A program made the position numbers and the translations under genes. DNA of 51,418 nt. It comes from a virus. The notes beneath the pieces were generated by a model. The model made no database searches. It was not told where the DNA came from and worked only from the letters and a program-made list of their open reading frames with translations. Position 1 is the stretch's first letter, and the number at the start of each line of letters is the position of its first letter. The stretch spans positions 1-51,418 of IMG/VR virus record IMGVR_UViG_3300011416_000014. The stretch is one strand, 5' to 3'. Of the stretch, positions 2,707 through 50,386 are shown piece by piece.

Positions 2707-3218
2707 GCTTCCGCCTCAGAAACAGTGCGGATCTGTGCTCTTGCCTAGGTCTGCGTCCGAATCCAACGCAGCGAGACGCCTTCGAGCGCTTCGAGGCTGG
2801 CGAAAGTCCTCTGGATCTCCAGACGCAGCCCGACCGCAAGGTAATCGGCGGCGTGGGGATCGCCGTTCTGACTCATCTGCTGCTCGTGCCGGGCTCCCAA
2901 GTGCTGGTCGCGGCGTCGGAAACCGACCTGACCGGCAAGCTCATGGGCTTTCTGTACGACACGACCGCACGAATCGACCGTGCGCTTGCCTCGGTTTGTC
3001 ATTGGCCGGCGTGGGACCACCTGCAGATCAGCACTGACCCAGGGCATCGGCTGAAAGTCATGCCGAATAGGCCAGAATGGGCCACCAAATTGGCCATCGG
3101 GGACACCACGCTGGTGCTGCTGGGCTGCAGTTCGCGCGATGTCGACTTCGTGGACACCCGCTGGCGACTCGAACAGCACTTCAAACGGGAGGACGTGCGC
3201 GCGATCCGCGTTTGGTGA
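2703..3218 (+). CDS. Terminase-like protein without P-loop, directly upstream of terL
   Basis: 171 residues from a GTG that overlaps the preceding stop. The order of elements resembles the N-terminal half of the terminase ATPase: a PTQRDAFERF adaptor-like helix, a strand-loop-helix where Walker A would be (KVIGGVGIAVLTHLLL), a strand-helix similar to TIVTSPSMRQCKQWID of the neighbouring TerL (VLVAASETDLTGKLMGFLY), and a hydrophobic strand at the Walker B place (TTLVLLGC). The GKT and DE residues are missing. It stops after about 170 residues, with no nuclease domain. The position is where many phages carry the small terminase. It could be a TerS analogue, a decayed terminase copy or an unrelated protein. 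Confidence 0.5.
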   Translation: MSFRLRNSADLCSCLGLRPNPTQRDAFERFEAGESPLDLQTQPDRKVIGGVGIAVLTHLLLVPGSQVLVAASETDLTGKLMGFLYDTTARIDRALASVCHWPAWDHLQISTDPGHRLKVMPNRPEWATKLAIGDTTLVLLGCSSRDVDFVDTRWRLEQHFKREDVRAIRVW

Positions 3219-3222
3219 CACG

Positions 3223-4680
3223 ATGAGCCGCTTCGCACGCCATATCGAGCCCCTGTACGGCCGCTGGAGGCGTGACATTCGCGTCTTTGCGCGCGAGGCG
3301 ATGAACTTCGACTACACCTGGCAGCAGGAAGAGCTTTTCAACATCGTGCAGCTGGAAAGTTGGCTGCCGGAGGAGAAGCGCCTGAAGCGCGCTGCCGTTC
3401 GGAGCGGCCAGGGGCCTGGAAAAACCGCCGGCAGCGTGATCGTGGCCCTGTGGCGCTGCATGCGCTATGAAAACGCTCTGACGATCGTCACTTCGCCGTC
3501 GATGCGGCAGTGCAAGCAGTGGATCGACGAGTGCTCGCGCCTGGTGAAGGATGCGCACCCGCTGATGCAGCGAATGGTGCAGTGTTACGGCACCAAGGTT
3601 GAGATCAACGGGTCGAAGATGTGGGGCATCCGCACCGCCACGGCAACGCGGCCCGAGAACCTGCAGGGCATCCACGAGAAGCGGCTCACGTTCATCGCGG
3701 ACGAAGCGTCCGGCGTGTCCGCGAAGATCATGGACACCATCAAGGGAACGCTGTCCAACCCGGATGCTTTCTTCCTCGCAATCGGCAACCCCAACACGAC
3801 CTCCTGCGCGTTCTACGAGTTCTTCACCAGTCAGGCCGCAGCGTGGCACCGGCTGGTGTGGAACGCCGAGGACACGGCGCGTGACTACCCGCACATCCTG
3901 TCCCCGACCCGCAACCGGCAACTCGAACAGGAGCACGGCCGCGACAGCGACGTATACCGCATCCGCGTGCTTGGCGAGTTCCCGCACGAGGACCCGAACA
4001 ACGTGATGTCGCTGCGCGACCTGACCATTTGCACGCGCACCGACCTGCTGGGCTGCGCCGGCATCACCGACCTGCTGCCCGTGAACCGCGCGATCGGGCT
4101 GGACTACGCGCGCTTCGGCGGCGACGAGTCGGTTGTGGCGCGGCGCAGCGGCCTGGCCATCGTGGACTTCCGCACGTTCGTGAAGACCGAGCCTATCAGT
4201 GTGACCGACTACGCTTTCCGCCTGCAGCACGACGCGGGGTGGGCGAACAGCGACTGCTGGTACATCCCGGACGCGGGCGGCATGGGCCAGGGCGTCGTCC
4301 ACTCGTTCCACGAGGGCGGCAAGAACGTCCTGGAGTTCCACACGCAGGCCCGCGCGCACGACTCGTCGATGTTCAGCGACCTGTACAGCGAGGCGTGGTG
4401 GTCGCTCCGCAACCTCACGCGCGAGCACATCGTGCGCCTGCCCAACGACCCGCGGCTGCTGCAGCAGTTGTCGACCCGCCAGTATTACACGGACCGGAAG
4501 GGCAAGCTGAAGGTCGAGTCGAAGGACGAGTGGCGGAAGCGAATGGAAATCACCGAGTCGCCGGACCGCGCCGACGCGGTTGTGATGGCCTTCTACCCGC
4601 ACTTGGGCGACGAAGGCAAGATGGTGAGGGCATCGCCCCGCCGGCACATCGTCGGGAGCAAGGCGCTCCGAAAGCGCTGA
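3223..4680 (+). CDS. terL: Terminase large subunit
   Basis: 485 residues. This ATP-driven motor and endonuclease packages DNA into proheads at the portal. Walker A is SGQGPGKT (61-68), Walker B LTFIADEA (155-162), and the coupling segment is IGNPN (187-191). The RNase-H-fold nuclease domain begins at AIGLDYARFGGDE (catalytic Asp294) and ends with the conserved DRADAVVMAF. The ATG at 3223 is chosen because it follows the preceding stop by 4 nt and the encoded N-terminus is normal; an in-frame ATG 84 nt earlier would overlap the upstream gene. The portal lies 20 kb away on the far side of the head/tail block, an unusual separation. Confidence 0.95.
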   Translation: MSRFARHIEPLYGRWRRDIRVFAREAMNFDYTWQQEELFNIVQLESWLPEEKRLKRAAVRSGQGPGKTAGSVIVALWRCMRYENALTIVTSPSMRQCKQWIDECSRLVKDAHPLMQRMVQCYGTKVEINGSKMWGIRTATATRPENLQGIHEKRLTFIADEASGVSAKIMDTIKGTLSNPDAFFLAIGNPNTTSCAFYEFFTSQAAAWHRLVWNAEDTARDYPHILSPTRNRQLEQEHGRDSDVYRIRVLGEFPHEDPNNVMSLRDLTICTRTDLLGCAGITDLLPVNRAIGLDYARFGGDESVVARRSGLAIVDFRTFVKTEPISVTDYAFRLQHDAGWANSDCWYIPDAGGMGQGVVHSFHEGGKNVLEFHTQARAHDSSMFSDLYSEAWWSLRNLTREHIVRLPNDPRLLQQLSTRQYYTDRKGKLKVESKDEWRKRMEITESPDRADAVVMAFYPHLGDEGKMVRASPRRHIVGSKALRKR

Positions 4681-4754: not shown

Positions 4755-5180
4755 ATGCGCGCGCTACTGCCGGCCGTCCTGGCCGCCCTCCTCATGGGCG
4801 GCTGCGTGTCCACTCCCGCCCTCACCGTCGCTCAGGAAACCGCCGAGGCGCCTGCCGGGTTCGAGCCGGCGCTGTTTCAGCGGGCCTGCGAAGCCCTCAT
4901 GGAGCATTGCCCCCTCAACGCGCCGGTCAGGGTCCAGGTACAGCCGCTGGAAGGCTACTACGGCCGCACGCACTGGGCAGGCCAGTACGAGATCGCGATC
5001 GAGGGTCGGCAGCCCATGCAGGGCGTCCTGGACACCCTGATCCACGAGTGGGCGCACGCGATGGTGTGGGATGCCTCCGAAGACCCCGTCTACGGCGGCC
5101 ACGGGCCGCTGTGGGGCGTTGCCTACGCGCGAGCCTATCGGGTCGTCATGGCCGAACTGACCGCGTCAGCGGGCGACTGA
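4755..5180 (+). CDS. Secreted HExxH metallopeptidase-like lipoprotein
   Basis: 141 residues. The signal peptide has a lipobox (LLMGGC, Cys17), so the mature protein is predicted to be lipid-anchored. The zinc motif is H97-E-W-A-H101, with a likely third ligand in GGHGPLWG (His116), as in SprT-like and related small phage metallopeptidases. The ATG at 4755 has GGAG 7 nt upstream; an ATG at 4716 would precede the signal with a hydrophilic leader. Known family members cut proteins; the target here is unknown. Possible roles are envelope remodelling at lysis or superinfection exclusion. It is the last rightward gene before a convergent junction. Confidence 0.7.
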   Translation: MRALLPAVLAALLMGGCVSTPALTVAQETAEAPAGFEPALFQRACEALMEHCPLNAPVRVQVQPLEGYYGRTHWAGQYEIAIEGRQPMQGVLDTLIHEWAHAMVWDASEDPVYGGHGPLWGVAYARAYRVVMAELTASAGD

Positions 5181-10041: not shown

Positions 10042-11673
10042 CTAGGTGGTGGGGAAATCTTCTTCGTTCAGCACTTCGATGATCTCGACCCCACAGTTCA
10101 TGTAGTTGGTGTGCTGCCAGGTCTCGGTGAAGGCGTCACTCTCGAACCTGCTCAATCGGGCTCGCGCAATGCGCGCCACGTCCGCAGGATCCAAATTGAT
10201 GTCGATCGGGTCGTCCATCGTGATGCGGAAAACCGTCAATACCTGATCGATCGTGACGGCTTCGCGCACGTAGACCATGCCGTCGTTCATGATGATCCCG
10301 ACGTGCTCGAACTCTTCCTGAAAGTCGGCCAGGTCGCCGATCTCCGCCACGCTGATGAAGGTGCCGGTTGGGTCGATGTCGACGGTTTCGAAGTATTGAT
10401 CCTGGTCGATGTGCCAGAAGCTGCGCAGGCGCCCGCGACGGGTCTCGAAGAACTCCAAGACGTTCCACATCTCGTCGCGCTTGCCGGTGAGCACGTACTT
10501 ATGGACCTGGCGGCTTCGGTCGCCCTCGGCGTTCACGAAGTCGGCGCGGCCGGCGTCTGAACGATCGCCGTAGCGCGACCTTCCCTTCGTGATCCCCTGC
10601 ACCCAGTCAGGCTCTTCGTACCAAATCGGGCGGCCGTTATAAATCTCGGCGCCCGTGGGGTTGTCAGAGCGTAGCGGCGGCAACTGAGAGGCGCCCGGGG
10701 CCTCGGCCATCGTGATCTTCACGACGGGCACCCGCGCGGTCTGGTAGTTGGCCTCTACCTCCAGGATGACCTCGCAGTCCATCATCGGGAAGACCAGCGA
10801 GCCGGCGGCCACGTCGACCCCGAGTGGATCTTCGAACGTCAGGCTGTTGTTGCTCTTCCCTTCGATGATGTGGAATGAGAATGAGACCGGCACGAAATCC
10901 TTGTCGACCTGCACGATTGCCACGCGCTGGCCGAGAAAGAAGCGTGCCTTGGTGGTGTCGACGACAATCGTCGAGTCGGCTGCATCATAGGCCGCATCCA
11001 GTTCACGCTGATCCATGTAGATGGGCACGGGGAAGCGCTGATCGGTCAGCCGGCGCAGCGCGACCTCGATTCGCTCCAGCCGTGCAAGATCGATGTGGGC
11101 GCAGATCATCCACTCCAGGTCCAGCGTGCGGAAGGGCTTCAAGGTCAGCCCGCGGCGAGAGTCCGCGCCGGAGTCAGGCGAGTGAACCACGCTGGTGCGG
11201 AACGAGCTGGTCATCTTGGCTTGCGTAGCCCAGTTGTGCAGGAACACATGGGCATCGTCAGGCAGGGCCAGAGGGTCGACCGGGCCAGCGGAGCCTTGAC
11301 GGGCCAGCACCTCGATCGATACCCGCGAGCACTGGATCTCAGCGCCCGTGGCATCGAACTGCCCAGCGACCATTACGTCCTCGCGTGTGACGCCGGCCTG
11401 CGCGACCTCCTCGGCCAGAACCTCGATCGAGAGCCGCGAGGTTTGCACTTCGTCGGTGCCGTCGAACTCCCCGGCTACCTGCACGTCTTCGCGGGTGACG
11501 CCGGCCTGTTTGGGATCCTCCCCTAGCACTTCGATCGACAAGCGTGACGTGCGAACTTCTTCGGTGCCATCCATGTTGGCGCCGACCTGCACGTCCTCGC
11601 GAGTAACGTCGCACACCGTGCCCTCGTCGCCGAGGATCTCGATGTTCAGCCGTGATGTGTTTACGGCGACCAT
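10042..11673 (-). CDS. Distal tail protein (DUF2460/lambda gpM-like) with N-terminal repeats
   Basis: 543 residues. Residues 6-126 are three and a third tandem repeats of about 36 residues (TSRLSIEVL...AGVTREDVQVAG.FDG). The rest is a beta-rich tail protein, with a C-terminal part (VHKYVLTGKRDEMWNVLEFFETRRGRLRSFWH) like the DUF2460 / minor-tail ring that links tape measure and hub. The start overlaps the previous stop (TGATG). SR.S.EVL units are known in other phage minor tail proteins, where they may form beta strands on the tail surface. Position between lectin-like paralogues and the BR0599 protein supports the call. Confidence 0.7.
   Translation of the reverse strand: MVAVNTSRLNIEILGDEGTVCDVTREDVQVGANMDGTEEVRTSRLSIEVLGEDPKQAGVTREDVQVAGEFDGTDEVQTSRLSIEVLAEEVAQAGVTREDVMVAGQFDATGAEIQCSRVSIEVLARQGSAGPVDPLALPDDAHVFLHNWATQAKMTSSFRTSVVHSPDSGADSRRGLTLKPFRTLDLEWMICAHIDLARLERIEVALRRLTDQRFPVPIYMDQRELDAAYDAADSTIVVDTTKARFFLGQRVAIVQVDKDFVPVSFSFHIIEGKSNNSLTFEDPLGVDVAAGSLVFPMMDCEVILEVEANYQTARVPVVKITMAEAPGASQLPPLRSDNPTGAEIYNGRPIWYEEPDWVQGITKGRSRYGDRSDAGRADFVNAEGDRSRQVHKYVLTGKRDEMWNVLEFFETRRGRLRSFWHIDQDQYFETVDIDPTGTFISVAEIGDLADFQEEFEHVGIIMNDGMVYVREAVTIDQVLTVFRITMDDPIDINLDPADVARIARARLSRFESDAFTETWQHTNYMNCGVEIIEVLNEEDFPTT
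11296..11658 (-). repeat. Tandem coding repeats (3.3 units of about 108 nt)
   Basis: Units run 11658-11551, 11550-11443, 11442-11332 and a partial 11331-11296. Each encodes TSRL-x-IE[VI]L at its start and VTREDV about 18 residues later. Units 2 and 3 are the most alike, so expansion is probably recent. A repeat array like this can change copy number by slipped replication. Confidence 0.85.
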
Positions 11674-12806
11674 CAGCCGTCGTTCCGCACGCCGTACTGG
11701 TAGGAGTTGAGATCAGCGATATCCCAGTCCGTGAGGGTGTTGGGGTCGTCCTCTAGCACCGCCGCAGACGCCTCGTAGGTGGTGCTGTCGACGTTCAGGG
11801 CGGTGCCGGCGTCCGTCTCCGCGGGAGTGCCGGTAGTCTTCCGGAAGAAATGCGCGATGTCCAAGTCCCCTGTCGTTTCCATGCGGGCGACGATGTCATG
11901 GCGCACACCGATGATGGTCGTGCCGGGTGCGATCAGGGCCACTAGAGGGTCCACCGTGGCTAGCGTGATGTCGGTGGGGACCTGGCTAGTGACGCGGGGA
12001 TCGTCGTCAGCCTCGCTGATCGTCTCGTCCCAAGCCTCGTTCAGGGTGGCGGCGTCGGCCAACACCCACTCGTCGGTGGCGCCAGCAGCCAGGGGCTTCT
12101 GTTCCTCGATCAGGATCTTGCCGAGGAAGTCGTTGTTCTTCGTGCCGGTGCTGTCGCACACATAGATGTCGTCGACCGCAACCTCCGTCACCGAGTTGCC
12201 GGTAATCATCGACAAGGAGAAGCGGTCAGCGCCCGTGGTGGCCTGGTTCTGGGTATCCACGCCGGTGTTGGCTGCATCCCAGGTCAAGGCGATCGGCACG
12301 TCGCTGATAGAGGGCTTCTGCGTGAACTGATACTGCCCGGAGAACTCGCCCGTCGCATTGTCGATCGTGACCTTGAACTCGAAGAACACCCAGAGAGAGG
12401 GGCTGTTGTCGGCAATGAAGAAGCCTTCGACGGACGTGGCAAGCTCAACAGCTCCCCGCATGACGCGGATGCGGTACAGGTTGCCGCCGGGCTTGCTCTT
12501 CAACTCTTCGAAGAACTCGAACCGGATCTGTTCGCCATCCCCGTTCCGCATGGCAACATACGGGATGTCGGGATTGTTGATCTTGTCGTCGTCGTGCGAG
12601 CGGAAGGCCAGGCCGATGATCCAAGTGTTCTCCACCGAGGAGAACGGCTTGGTGGTGAACAAGGCATCGTCGGACGTGATCGCCACGCCTCCGGTCTCAC
12701 TGGCCCCAGCCGCCTGTGTGATGGTGCCGGTCATCGTGTTGTAGGTTCGCGCCAAGTGAGTGGTGTTGATCGAGGCGTCGAAGCCTTCGAGCCATTTGAG
12801 GGCCAT
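11673..12806 (-). CDS. Lectin/LamG-like virion protein, paralogue of the upstream gene
   Basis: 377 residues from ATG 12806, which overlaps the previous stop (TAATG). MALKWLEGFDAS opens the protein, as in many phage proteins with a concanavalin/LamG jelly roll; the first 200 residues form beta strands ending in VDDIYVCDSTGTKNNDFLG. The second half (ATLNEAWDE, then STTYEASAAVLEDDP) has the same plan as its neighbour. The pair (MACVWIEGFETH... and LDDMYVLNGTGAVNNDFL... in the other) are clear tandem paralogues. Placement between tape measure and distal tail suggests a tail surface or adsorption component. Carbohydrate binding is inference. Confidence 0.7.
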   Translation of the reverse strand: MALKWLEGFDASINTTHLARTYNTMTGTITQAAGASETGGVAITSDDALFTTKPFSSVENTWIIGLAFRSHDDDKINNPDIPYVAMRNGDGEQIRFEFFEELKSKPGGNLYRIRVMRGAVELATSVEGFFIADNSPSLWVFFEFKVTIDNATGEFSGQYQFTQKPSISDVPIALTWDAANTGVDTQNQATTGADRFSLSMITGNSVTEVAVDDIYVCDSTGTKNNDFLGKILIEEQKPLAAGATDEWVLADAATLNEAWDETISEADDDPRVTSQVPTDITLATVDPLVALIAPGTTIIGVRHDIVARMETTGDLDIAHFFRKTTGTPAETDAGTALNVDSTTYEASAAVLEDDPNTLTDWDIADLNSYQYGVRNDG

Positions 12807-13852
12807 TAGCTGACGACCTCCATGCCGAACTGCCCACCGTCGATGTCCGCCACATCCCAGGGCGCGGCCGACACGGGGTTCTCCTGGAAGACCTGCGTGA
12901 ACTCGTCGAAGGTCGTGCTGTTCACGACGTGTGAGTCGCCGTCCGCCTCGGTCGTGCTGGGATCGCGATACTTGGTCTTCACGGTGCGCGTGCCGGCCGC
13001 AGCCATGCCAAGTTGGATGCCCAGTTGCACGGCATGGATCGTGCCAGTGATCTGCGTGAGATCCTCGAAGTTGTAGGTATCCTTCTGGCCGTTGGTGTCC
13101 GAGCCGACCGTGCCTCCAGCACCAACATCGTCGGGTGCCTGATCGAAGGCATCGTCCACCGACGTGAAACTGTCGCCAGTGCCGTTGTTCGTCCACTGGA
13201 TCGTGGTGCCGTTGGCGTTGGGGACCTTGCCTTCGACGATGGACGGACTGAGGAAGTCATTGTTCACTGCCCCCGTGCCGTTGAGCACGTACATATCATC
13301 GAGGCGCAGGATCGTGCTGACGTTGGCACTGAAGCGCCAGGCATGGATATCTGCCCCGTCAACGCCGCTGTCGGCCAGGTCGACGCCGGAGCCAGAAATG
13401 TCCGTCACGCCGTTGATGCGCAACTCGTAGGAGCCGTTGACCCCGGTGCGCAGCACCAGCTTGACCTCTACATAGTGCCACACCGCAAAGTCGGTGTAGC
13501 TGGACGTGGCGATGGTGGTCGCGCCCCTCTTGATGTGGAAGCGCACCCCTAGACCGCTGGTGCTCTCGAACTCGACGTGGGCCTGTTCGTCAACGCCGCG
13601 CTCGAAGTACAGCCCCTGGCTGCCGGTGTTCAGCAACGTGCTATGCGCATTGAAGCGGAAGCCGAAGCCTACGATCATCGTGTTGTCGGTGCCGAACGAC
13701 GGCGTCACCGCGACCCAAGATAACGGGCCGCCGGCCGTGCCGAACACGCGGCCTGGCTGAGAGATCGTCGAGCCGCTCACGCTGGCGTACTTGCGCGCCT
13801 GTTGCGAGGCGTTCAAGTGAGTCTCGAAGCCCTCGATCCATACACAGGCCAT
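12806..13852 (-). CDS. Lectin/LamG-like virion protein, first of two paralogues
   Basis: 348 residues. Same architecture as the following gene: W-x-EGFE opening, a jelly-roll-like domain to about residue 200 closed by LDDMYVLNGTGAVNNDFL, then a smaller domain (SFTSVDDAFDQAPDD, STTFDEFTQVFQENP) ending WDVADIDGGQFGMEV, matched in the paralogue by WDIADLNSYQYGV. GGAGATAACC precedes the ATG. The tape measure stop is 2 nt downstream of... its start, i.e. the tape measure gene ends 2 nt before this gene begins in transcription order. Likely exposed on the tail; ligand unknown. Confidence 0.7.
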   Translation of the reverse strand: MACVWIEGFETHLNASQQARKYASVSGSTISQPGRVFGTAGGPLSWVAVTPSFGTDNTMIVGFGFRFNAHSTLLNTGSQGLYFERGVDEQAHVEFESTSGLGVRFHIKRGATTIATSSYTDFAVWHYVEVKLVLRTGVNGSYELRINGVTDISGSGVDLADSGVDGADIHAWRFSANVSTILRLDDMYVLNGTGAVNNDFLSPSIVEGKVPNANGTTIQWTNNGTGDSFTSVDDAFDQAPDDVGAGGTVGSDTNGQKDTYNFEDLTQITGTIHAVQLGIQLGMAAAGTRTVKTKYRDPSTTEADGDSHVVNSTTFDEFTQVFQENPVSAAPWDVADIDGGQFGMEVVS

Positions 13853-45489: not shown

Positions 45490-46119
45490 TCAGTCTGCCG
45501 TATAGGGCTGACCGTCGGGGAGGCACGGCGCCGGCCGCCAGTGAGTCACGCCGTCGAATCGATATCCATCTTCGTGGTCCACCCGCCAATAGAGTGGACT
45601 TTCCGGATCCGGATAAGCCGTCAAGGACGCAAAGACTTGCACGTACCCGCCAGTTACGATGACCGGGTCCGAGGTAAACCACTGCCGCCCGCGTTTCATC
45701 AACGGCAAAGCGTCCTCGACGGCAGTCCATGCGTCCGTGGGCCGAGTCCAGGCGAGCAGTCGTTCGACCGTGTCCGGGAAGACTTCCAGCTCCTTGGCCA
45801 AGTCCTCCAATCCGTCGTCCAGCAAGCCGGCGAAGTACGGGCCGGCGCGGAACGCTTCCTCCGACTCGCACGATACCCGGCCGAGCCAAACATCGCCCGT
45901 TAGGGCTAGGGGGAAACTGGGGCATTCGGCGCGCAAATGCACCCGGCACCAACCCCAGTCCGTGCGTGCGGCAAGCTCTGCAACCTCAAGCTCGGCCGCA
46001 CGTTCCTCCTCCGGGTCGTTCGATGCTAGCACGTTCCCGGCGATCTGAGAAGGCTCGGGATGAGGAACCAGTGTGATGGTCGCATGCGACCGCAGGAACT
46101 CCAGGAGACGGGGATTCAT
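45490..46119 (-). CDS. Unknown protein with shared N-terminal module (MNxRLLEFLR)
   Basis: 209 residues. ATG 46119 overlaps the previous stop. Residues 1-25 (MNPRLLEFLRSHATITLVPH and PEPSQ) are nearly identical to the start of the protein at 46561-47013, so the two genes share a module. The rest is an unrelated domain (GWCRVHLRAECPSFPLALTG, LLAWTRPTDAWTAVEDALPLM, SPLYWRVDHEDGYRFDG), acidic and aromatic-rich. It looks like an immunity-type or phage small-protein domain, but no family is recognised. Confidence 0.6.
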   Translation of the reverse strand: MNPRLLEFLRSHATITLVPHPEPSQIAGNVLASNDPEEERAAELEVAELAARTDWGWCRVHLRAECPSFPLALTGDVWLGRVSCESEEAFRAGPYFAGLLDDGLEDLAKELEVFPDTVERLLAWTRPTDAWTAVEDALPLMKRGRQWFTSDPVIVTGGYVQVFASLTAYPDPESPLYWRVDHEDGYRFDGVTHWRPAPCLPDGQPYTAD

Positions 46120-46325
46120 GGTGCGCGCTCCAATCTCTTCATCCGATCTATCAGCATCGGCGCTTGGCGCCGCACCGTTCGATCTGAAACATCCGCCGAG
46201 AACGCCCCCGTTGGAAGTTCCTCCCGCGACTCCTGGCGTTCTCCGGCAGTAGCAGTGCGGAGTCGTTCGGCAGTATCGTAGGTCAGTAAATCGCCGAATG
46301 CGTCCACGTAGCAAGTCAGTTTCAT
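46116..46325 (-). CDS. Unknown small protein
   Basis: 69 residues. The short N-terminal strand-loop (MKLTCYVDAFGDLLTYDTAERLRTA) is followed by a charged, polar stretch. ATGA overlaps on both sides. No family recognised. Confidence 0.5.
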   Translation of the reverse strand: MKLTCYVDAFGDLLTYDTAERLRTATAGERQESREELPTGAFSADVSDRTVRRQAPMLIDRMKRLERAP

Positions 46326-46564
46326 GGCGAGTCCTCGGTTAGAGTCACGGCACCCGCGCTGCCGCGCTTGGCCAGCGGGTCCTCAGTGTCGAGTGCCAGG
46401 ATGCCGGCCTTCAGGCACCGGCCGACGATGTCATATCCGTAGCGGAGCGAGCCGTTCGGGCCGACTCGCTCGGCAAGGTACTTGCAACACGGCACCGCGC
46501 CGCCGGCACGCCGAACGATACGAACCGCTTCGCCCATCTTCGGGCCGATCCGTCGGCGTCTCAT
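46322..46564 (-). CDS. Unknown small protein
   Basis: 80 residues. Basic N-terminus (MRRRRIGPKMGEAVRIVRRAGG) with two adjacent Cys (AVPCCKYLAERVGPNGSLRYGYDIVGRC), suggesting a nucleic-acid-binding winged-helix-like fold, which is inference. ATGA overlaps on both sides. Confidence 0.5.
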   Translation of the reverse strand: MRRRRIGPKMGEAVRIVRRAGGAVPCCKYLAERVGPNGSLRYGYDIVGRCLKAGILALDTEDPLAKRGSAGAVTLTEDSP

Positions 46565-46936
46565 GCGTCCGTCCCCGAAGTCGTCTCATCGTAGAAGGTC
46601 CGCGCGGAAGGGTAAGCACTCCAGTCCGGTTGATCGCCGCCCGAGCGCAACCAACGGCGCAGAGCGAATGCGTACTCCGTTGCGGTTTCGGTGTTTCCCT
46701 CGGCCAGTGCTTCGGCCATTGCTGCGAGATTGGCGTTTGGATCCATGGTGCGTCCTTTCGTTCTGTCGGGAAAGAAGTCGAGACTATTGCCCCCGCGATT
46801 GTAAGTGTAGATTGCGTTCCGCACTTCGGGTTTGCAGTAGGGGTTCCCGGTCCGATCGCCGGTTGTTGCCCAGTGCAGAAGGATATAGAGCGCTCTGCGC
46901 AGCTCGGCAACCTCCTGCGCCTTCAAGCTGGCGTCC
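46561..46936. repeat. 376-bp direct repeat, copy 1
   Basis: Collinear with 47147-47522 with no gaps across 376 bp; roughly 85 per cent identical by eye. Holds the fused small gene. One T-to-A difference (in the gene's strand, TGA in copy 2, AGA here) removes the stop between two units. Confidence 0.85.
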
Positions 46937-47013
46937 TTCTGAGAAGGCTCGGGATGGGGGACGAGTTTGATGGTCGCACGAGTGCGGAGGAACTCCAGCA
47001 GTCGCGTATTCAT
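46561..47013 (-). CDS. Fused mosaic small protein (lost stop codon)
   Basis: 150 residues from ATG 47013 (overlaps previous stop). Three modules: residues 1-25 as in the 45490-46119 protein (MNTRLLEFLRTRATIKLVPH), then KAQEVAELRRALYILLHWATTGDRTGNPYCKP (paralogue 47348-47539), then MDPNANLAAMAEALAEG onward (paralogue 47147-47332). The join reads FFPDRTKGRTMDP; in the duplicate the Arg codon after Asp is a TGA stop. The inner ATG at 46746 still has AAAGGA upstream, so the last module may also be made alone (61 residues). Function unknown. Confidence 0.7.
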   Translation of the reverse strand: MNTRLLEFLRTRATIKLVPHPEPSQKDASLKAQEVAELRRALYILLHWATTGDRTGNPYCKPEVRNAIYTYNRGGNSLDFFPDRTKGRTMDPNANLAAMAEALAEGNTETATEYAFALRRWLRSGGDQPDWSAYPSARTFYDETTSGTDA

Positions 47014-47150
47014 TGGTTCCCCTTGACAAATGACTCGGCCGATTCGCGCGTTCGGAACGTCGCCAGAACTTCCCAGTCCTCGCCCTCTTCCAAGACAACG
47101 TAGAAGAGAGTTCCACTCTCTCCATGCCATGTCACGATTCTGGCGTTCAT
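47010..47150 (-). CDS. 46-residue protein
   Basis: ATG 47150 with GGAGCGGAC just upstream; both ends overlap neighbours (ATGA). Product MNARIVTWHGESGTLFYVVL, then EEGEDWEVLATFRTRESAESF: a strand-turn-strand-helix fold that would be a small beta-sheet protein. Good coding context despite the size. No family recognised. Confidence 0.5.
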   Translation of the reverse strand: MNARIVTWHGESGTLFYVVLEEGEDWEVLATFRTRESAESFVKGNQ

Positions 47151-47332
47151 GCGTCCGCTCCTGAAGTAGTTTCATCGTAGAAGGTCCGCGCGGAAGGGTA
47201 AGCAGTCCAGTCCGGTTGATCGCCCCCGCGCCGCAACCAACGGCGCAAGGCCAGTGCGTACTCGGTTGCGGTTTCGGTGTCTTCCTCAGCCAGCGCTTGC
47301 GCGATTGCTGCGAGATTTGCGTTTGGATCCAT
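47147..47332 (-). CDS. Unknown small protein (module C, unfused copy)
   Basis: 61 residues starting MDPNANLAAIAQALAEEDTE and ending in SARTFYDETTSGADA. ACGAAAGGACGCATC lies before the ATG. Near-identical to the C-terminal third of the fused protein at 46561-47013. Helical with an aromatic end. Function unknown. Confidence 0.65.
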   Translation of the reverse strand: MDPNANLAAIAQALAEEDTETATEYALALRRWLRRGGDQPDWTAYPSARTFYDETTSGADA

Positions 47333-47522
47333 GATGCGTCCTTTCGTTCAGTCGGGAAAGAAGCTGAGGCTATCGCCCCCGCGGTTGTAGGTGCGGATTG
47401 CGTTCCGCACTTCGGGTTTGCAGTACGGGTTCCCTGTCCTGTCGCCTGTCGTTGCCCATTGCAGAAGGATATAGAGCGCTCGGCGGATCTCTGCAATCTC
47501 CTGCGCCTTGAGTCTTGCGTCC
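47147..47522. repeat. 376-bp direct repeat, copy 2
   Basis: Matches 46561-46936 over its whole length. It carries the two units as separate genes with a TGA between them. A tandem duplication with one small gene (47010-47150) and the extra N-terminal module lying between the copies. Confidence 0.85.
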
Positions 47523-47539
47523 ATTTCGTACAGGTTCAT
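47348..47539 (-). CDS. Unknown small protein (module B, unfused copy)
   Basis: 63 residues: a different N-terminus (MNLYEMDAR) then KAQEIAEIRRALYILLQWAT and GNPYCKPEVRNAIRTYNRGG, ending SFFPD and TGA. The same module is read through in the fused copy. ATG 47539 overlaps the previous stop. Function unknown. Confidence 0.65.
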   Translation of the reverse strand: MNLYEMDARLKAQEIAEIRRALYILLQWATTGDRTGNPYCKPEVRNAIRTYNRGGDSLSFFPD

Positions 47540-50176: not shown

Positions 50177-50386
50177 CTAGATCCTGTAGCTATGTACGAA
50201 AGTAGCGGTTTTGCCGATCCGGTTCGAGGCATACTTCCATGCCGCTTTCCACCATGAATCGAGCGCCGGGTTCTCGGCCTTGTTTTCCGCGATGCTGGCC
50301 AAGATGGTAAGGACTCGGCCGAGTCCTTCCCGATCCACGATGGATTCGAGAACTTCGGCCAATGTGGGTTCCGGTTCGAGTTTCAT
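50177..50386 (-). CDS. Unknown small protein
   Basis: 69 residues from ATG 50386, overlapping the previous stop. Two helices (PTLAEVLESIVDREGLGRVLTILASIAEN and NPALDSWWKAAWKYASNRIG). No family recognised. Confidence 0.5.
   Translation of the reverse strand: MKLEPEPTLAEVLESIVDREGLGRVLTILASIAENKAENPALDSWWKAAWKYASNRIGKTATFVHSYRI

Follow-up and report, generated by a model that had tools for sequence, protein, structure and literature searches.

A two-gene unit of an uncultured tailed phage is present in two collinear copies, and in one of them the stop codon between the two genes is replaced by a sense codon, giving a fused open frame of 150 amino acids that also carries a copy of the start of a third gene. 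Based on these observations, we tentatively propose a scheme in which the unit, A followed by B, would have been duplicated in tandem, the start of a further gene, N0, would have been joined to A at the novel joint of that duplication, and a TGA would then have been lost, fusing A to B. We place the likelihood of this scheme as a whole a little short of even, and give the alternatives below with the evidence that bears on them.

The window is the whole stretch of DNA analysed, the 51,418 bases of virus record IMGVR_UViG_3300011416_000014 (63% GC). The terminase large subunit gene lies at 3139-4680, with a tRNA-Ala (anticodon CGC) nearby on the opposite strand (4845-4924, minus). The structural region contains, on the minus strand, two adjoining paralogues with 27% identity over 382 residues (12806-13852 and 11673-13196) and a protein with a tandem repeat of ~37 codons (TSRLSIEVLGE...GVTREDVQV; about four copies, 11302-11611, inside the gene at 10042-11673) at its N-terminus; a near-perfect inverted repeat of 26 bases (92%) is found at 50306-50331. 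The duplicated and fused genes sit in a minus-strand run of small, overlapping genes, whose order in the direction of transcription is A2, B2, X, the N1-A1-B1 fusion, Y, Z and the N0 gene. A2 (47348-47539, 63 amino acids) and B2 (47147-47332, 61 amino acids) are the separate genes of copy 2. The two copies are separated by X (47010-47150, 46 amino acids), which overlaps its neighbours at ATGA. Copy 1 is followed by Y (46322-46564, 80 amino acids), starting at the ATGA of B1, then by Z (46116-46325, 69 amino acids) and the N0 gene (45490-46119, 209 amino acids). Four-base overlaps occur at five junctions (B2/X, X/fusion, fusion/Y, Y/Z and Z/N0). Four start sites on the minus strand between 46744 and 47910 have GGACGCAnnATG in common; 0.7 would be expected and four were reached in 1 of 100 shuffles, and because the duplicated B starts account for two of these sites, the set is only partly independent.

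The two copies (46561-46936 and 47147-47522, minus strand) align without gaps and are identical at 326 of 376 positions, with an E value of 1.4e-129 when the window is compared with itself by BLAST. Together with the copies of N, they are the strongest repeats of the window bar one inside the 10042-11673 gene, which excludes chance. In copy 2 the modules are separate: A2 ends in SFFPD followed by TGA (47348-47350), and B2 is a gene of its own. In copy 1 the corresponding DFFPD is followed by AGA at 46762-46764, and the frame continues as AGA ACG AAA GGA CGC ACC ATG into B1. The stop-free frame (46561-47013, minus strand) thus comprises N1, its first 25 codons (46938-47013), A1 (46765-46936), the former intergenic piece (46744-46761), now read in frame and near-identical to its counterpart in copy 2, and B1 (46561-46746, 61 codons and a stop), and its A and B parts are conserved relative to copy 2. 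The inner AAAGGACGCACCATG of copy 1 is the counterpart of AAAGGACGCATCATG in copy 2; the Shine-Dalgarno AAAGGACG and the ATG of B are both retained inside the fusion, and the inner ATG is a possible alternative start. All of this agrees with the first-pass annotation, which had described separate modules in copy 2 and a 150-residue fusion with an inner Shine-Dalgarno in copy 1. Its term readthrough is wrong, as the change is a substitution inside the stop codon. The unfused sister copy has an in-frame TGA at the equivalent place, and because the 18 nt from the stop of A to the start of B preserve the frame, one substitution suffices for the A-B join.

That join hangs on a single base of the assembly, T46764 on the plus strand in copy 1 against A47350 in copy 2. 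Were the base at 46764 wrong, through an error in the reads, the consensus or the assembly, the join would vanish: A1 and B1 would be separate genes, and of the rearrangements just the duplication and the joining of N to A would be real. The full retention of the inner ribosome site and the rarity of AGA as an arginine codon here (19 of 646 arginine codons in the genes counted) would fit such an error. However, there is no positive sign of one, the copies are 13% apart, which makes assembly collapse unlikely, and a comparable join is present in another virus contig (see below); we regard an error as improbable.

How old is the duplication, and have both copies been maintained? The alignment with dN/dS that had been proposed as a check yields dS 0.39, dN 0.08 and dN/dS 0.21 between the copies. 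The duplication is thus moderately old, and its earlier description as recent does not hold at the sequence level. By part, dN/dS is 0.21 for A, 0.17 for B and 0.11 for N against N0, the last on few sites. Under a half-neutral model, with one copy drifting, ~47 nonsynonymous differences would be expected and 21 are seen (P about 5e-6). A dN/dS of ~0.2, measured on the A and B parts, rejects the status of drifting pseudogene for either copy: both have been under protein-level constraint during most of their separate history, which does not in itself date the stop loss.

Which state came first, separate or fused? Comparison of the two copies cannot by itself orient the change, which gives an opening to a reading with a fused N-A-B ancestor, from which copy 2 would be derived by splitting. 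The B family lends support to the opposite polarity. The PHROG 865 profile matches B2 (E 5e-6 over residues 1-47) and B1 within the fusion (5.8e-4), and B has the conserved positions M1, D2, P3, N4, L7, W32, G37, P40 and W42 of the MDPNxxL family, as aligned from 16 members. The family is present in 26 virus contigs, and its mycobacteriophage members lead to about 300 matching phage records. In the survey of fused and unfused states, proposed at the outset and carried out for the B family, 25 virus contigs could be judged, L046 being left out because only 34 bases precede B in it; the gene starts with B in 24 of them, as it does in each of the 12 annotated phage records inspected. Judged from this distribution, it is most likely that the ancestral B was a separate gene and that AGA is derived. 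An inner Shine-Dalgarno and ATG in a fused gene are also most easily explained as what is left of a once separate B gene; with the separate state of B in nearly all relatives they support stop loss in copy 1, and they make an ancestral fusion very unlikely.

The single exception to the separate state is contig L006 (IMGVR_UViG_3300005518_000016; L006, L010 and L027 are one contig), in which an ORF of 109 amino acids runs stop-free into B. Its GC content by codon position is coding-like (0.66/0.47/0.81, compared with 0.64/0.51/0.81 in its B part), and a Shine-Dalgarno-like GAGGGGGG precedes the ATG of B, so that an in-frame upstream join with a kept inner Shine-Dalgarno is common to both cases. 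They differ in that the upstream partners and the contigs are unrelated, and no duplicate copy is seen in L006. Long upstream openings in the frame of B in L008, L013, L018 and L019 were rejected as GC-rich shadow frames, with non-coding GC by codon position and a neighbouring gene in another frame. C-terminal extensions of B are common, as in AlanGrant gp89 (152 amino acids) and L046 (148 amino acids), where the B domain is followed by an extension of ~90 residues with a strongly coding GC pattern (35-478; third position 0.90). It is conceivable, but we think it unlikely, that B is a recurrent C-terminal acceptor, whose own ribosome site behind an upstream gene allows one base change to give a fusion as well as free B, and that such fusions have been selected at least twice independently.

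Proteins of PHROG 865, with the pattern MDPNxxL...W..GG..P..W, occur in Mycobacterium and Gordonia phages (Jeon gp82, Nyxis gp79, KayaCho gp85), and many are labelled 'HNH endonuclease'. B1 and B2 resemble them in the M-D-P-N start, the tryptophan of helix 2, the GG-x-x-P-x-W end, small size and location in runs of overlapping small genes; unlike them, in which B opens the gene, copy 1 has B at the C-terminus of a fusion. Annotations with this label, of ~55-65 amino acids, were found in L049 (801-983, Jeon), L050 (801-971, Nyxis), L052 (795-965, KayaCho) and L057 (501-698, Gordonia phage Stormageddon). We considered an HNH endonuclease identity for the B family and found no support for it: there is no histidine in the conserved columns and none in B2. 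The label is unsupported because the His-Asn-His motif is absent, also from Jeon gp82, Nyxis gp79 and Stormageddon gp149, and from the sequences it looks like a propagated error.

Did one event produce both the duplication and the N-terminal addition, or several? The first 76 nt of the fusion (46938-47013) match 46044-46119, at the start of the N0 gene, with 83% identity (E 5e-15 in the self-comparison), and one base separates N1 from A1; the N0 gene is the source or sister of this module. The N-terminal module shared by copy 1 and 45490-46119, recognized in the first-pass annotation, is thus upheld, and the separate event of domain gain that was attached to it is not needed, because N and A-B do not differ in divergence (13/76 against 50/376, P 0.37; synonymous P 0.20) and one tandem duplication could make the N-A joint. 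If the duplicated unit reached from A as far as 76 bases into N0, a tandem duplication would yield exactly this joint, and the gene order A2-B2-X-N1A1B1-Y-Z-N0 is as expected from a tandem copy. Other features count against a single tandem event. It predicts sequence like Y and Z between copy 2 and N1, whereas X has no similarity to Y or Z and was rejected as a remnant of either; the limits of the homology blocks coincide exactly with start and stop codons; and the spacing is 586 for the copies and 894 for N, so that a change of about 300 bp has to be assumed. One tandem duplication may have created the N-A joint as its new junction, and the unrelated, sharply bounded spacer leaves that unproven. 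The limits of the homology blocks and the dissimilarity of X are as anticipated from piecewise cassette exchange, in which duplication of A and B was followed by a second recombination, at a gene boundary, that brought the start of N to copy 1, and the stop was lost third; the four start sites with GGACGCAnnATG could be its recombination joints. Against this route, it needs more steps, and N and A-B do not differ in divergence. We see it as a serious possibility, a little less probable than the single event.

Under the single-event scheme that we prefer, the A-B unit would have been duplicated in the small-gene region of the phage, and the downstream copy, having lost its own A start, would have come to follow the first 25 codons of N0 in frame, most simply where one tandem duplication extending from A and B into N created a new junction. 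The intervening spacer would have been replaced or deleted later. Since the TGA of A already lay in the frame of B, at a distance of 18 nt, one T-to-A substitution there would then have joined A to B. The product N-A-B would present a folded three-helix B domain on a flexible linker, free B1 could still be made from the retained inner ribosome site, and the parent-like A2 and B2 persist next door. As to the order of events, the searches turned up no relative carrying A, and hence there is no outgroup. Searches of phage and plasmid collections with the fusion, A or B (B2 itself as query), for DNA and protein, gave no relatives, two weak matches of A in capsid and DNA polymerase genes being attributed to chance. 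A was not found in the virus contigs, searched as a single protein and as a two-row alignment, and near kin of the record may be missing from this set; B was not found in bacterial genome contigs, and neither a neighbouring gene nor a portal-like protein, used as queries, retrieved near kin of the phage.

What might the fused protein do? B alone is predicted as a three-helix domain (B2; pLDDT 94). In a model of the fusion the B fold is kept at about 85-94, residues 74-88 between A and B fall below 50 and N is poorly predicted. A fold search of the PDB with B gave no significant match, and among viral models the best match was a DrLupo protein (E 0.028), with other small proteins of mycobacteriophages; Pfam and NCBIfam gave no match. 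From its small size, its position and the absence of catalytic motifs, our guess is that B is an accessory protein-binding module. By the same guess the fusion would be a small accessory protein that tethers two interaction modules, A and B, with an inner start still able to give free B. Duplication and stop loss are supported at this locus; its designation as a gene birth, in the sense of a working fused protein, is unproven.

Composite genes and protein mosaicism are known from phages at large (PMC10684548), and duplication, stop loss and mosaic proteins are a well-known kind of event, of which this is a clear but ordinary example. As in phage protein mosaicism generally, a new protein is formed from joined pieces of existing genes; what sets this locus apart is that a single contig shows the source, the sister copy, the joint and the inner ribosome site that was kept. 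The locus illustrates phage gene remodelling in a small space, with source, sister copy and relic ribosome site lying next to one another. It also draws attention to a widespread family of small phage proteins that seem to be mislabelled as 'HNH endonuclease'. Were the fusion expressed, it would show how one gene can yield both fused and free forms en route to fusion.
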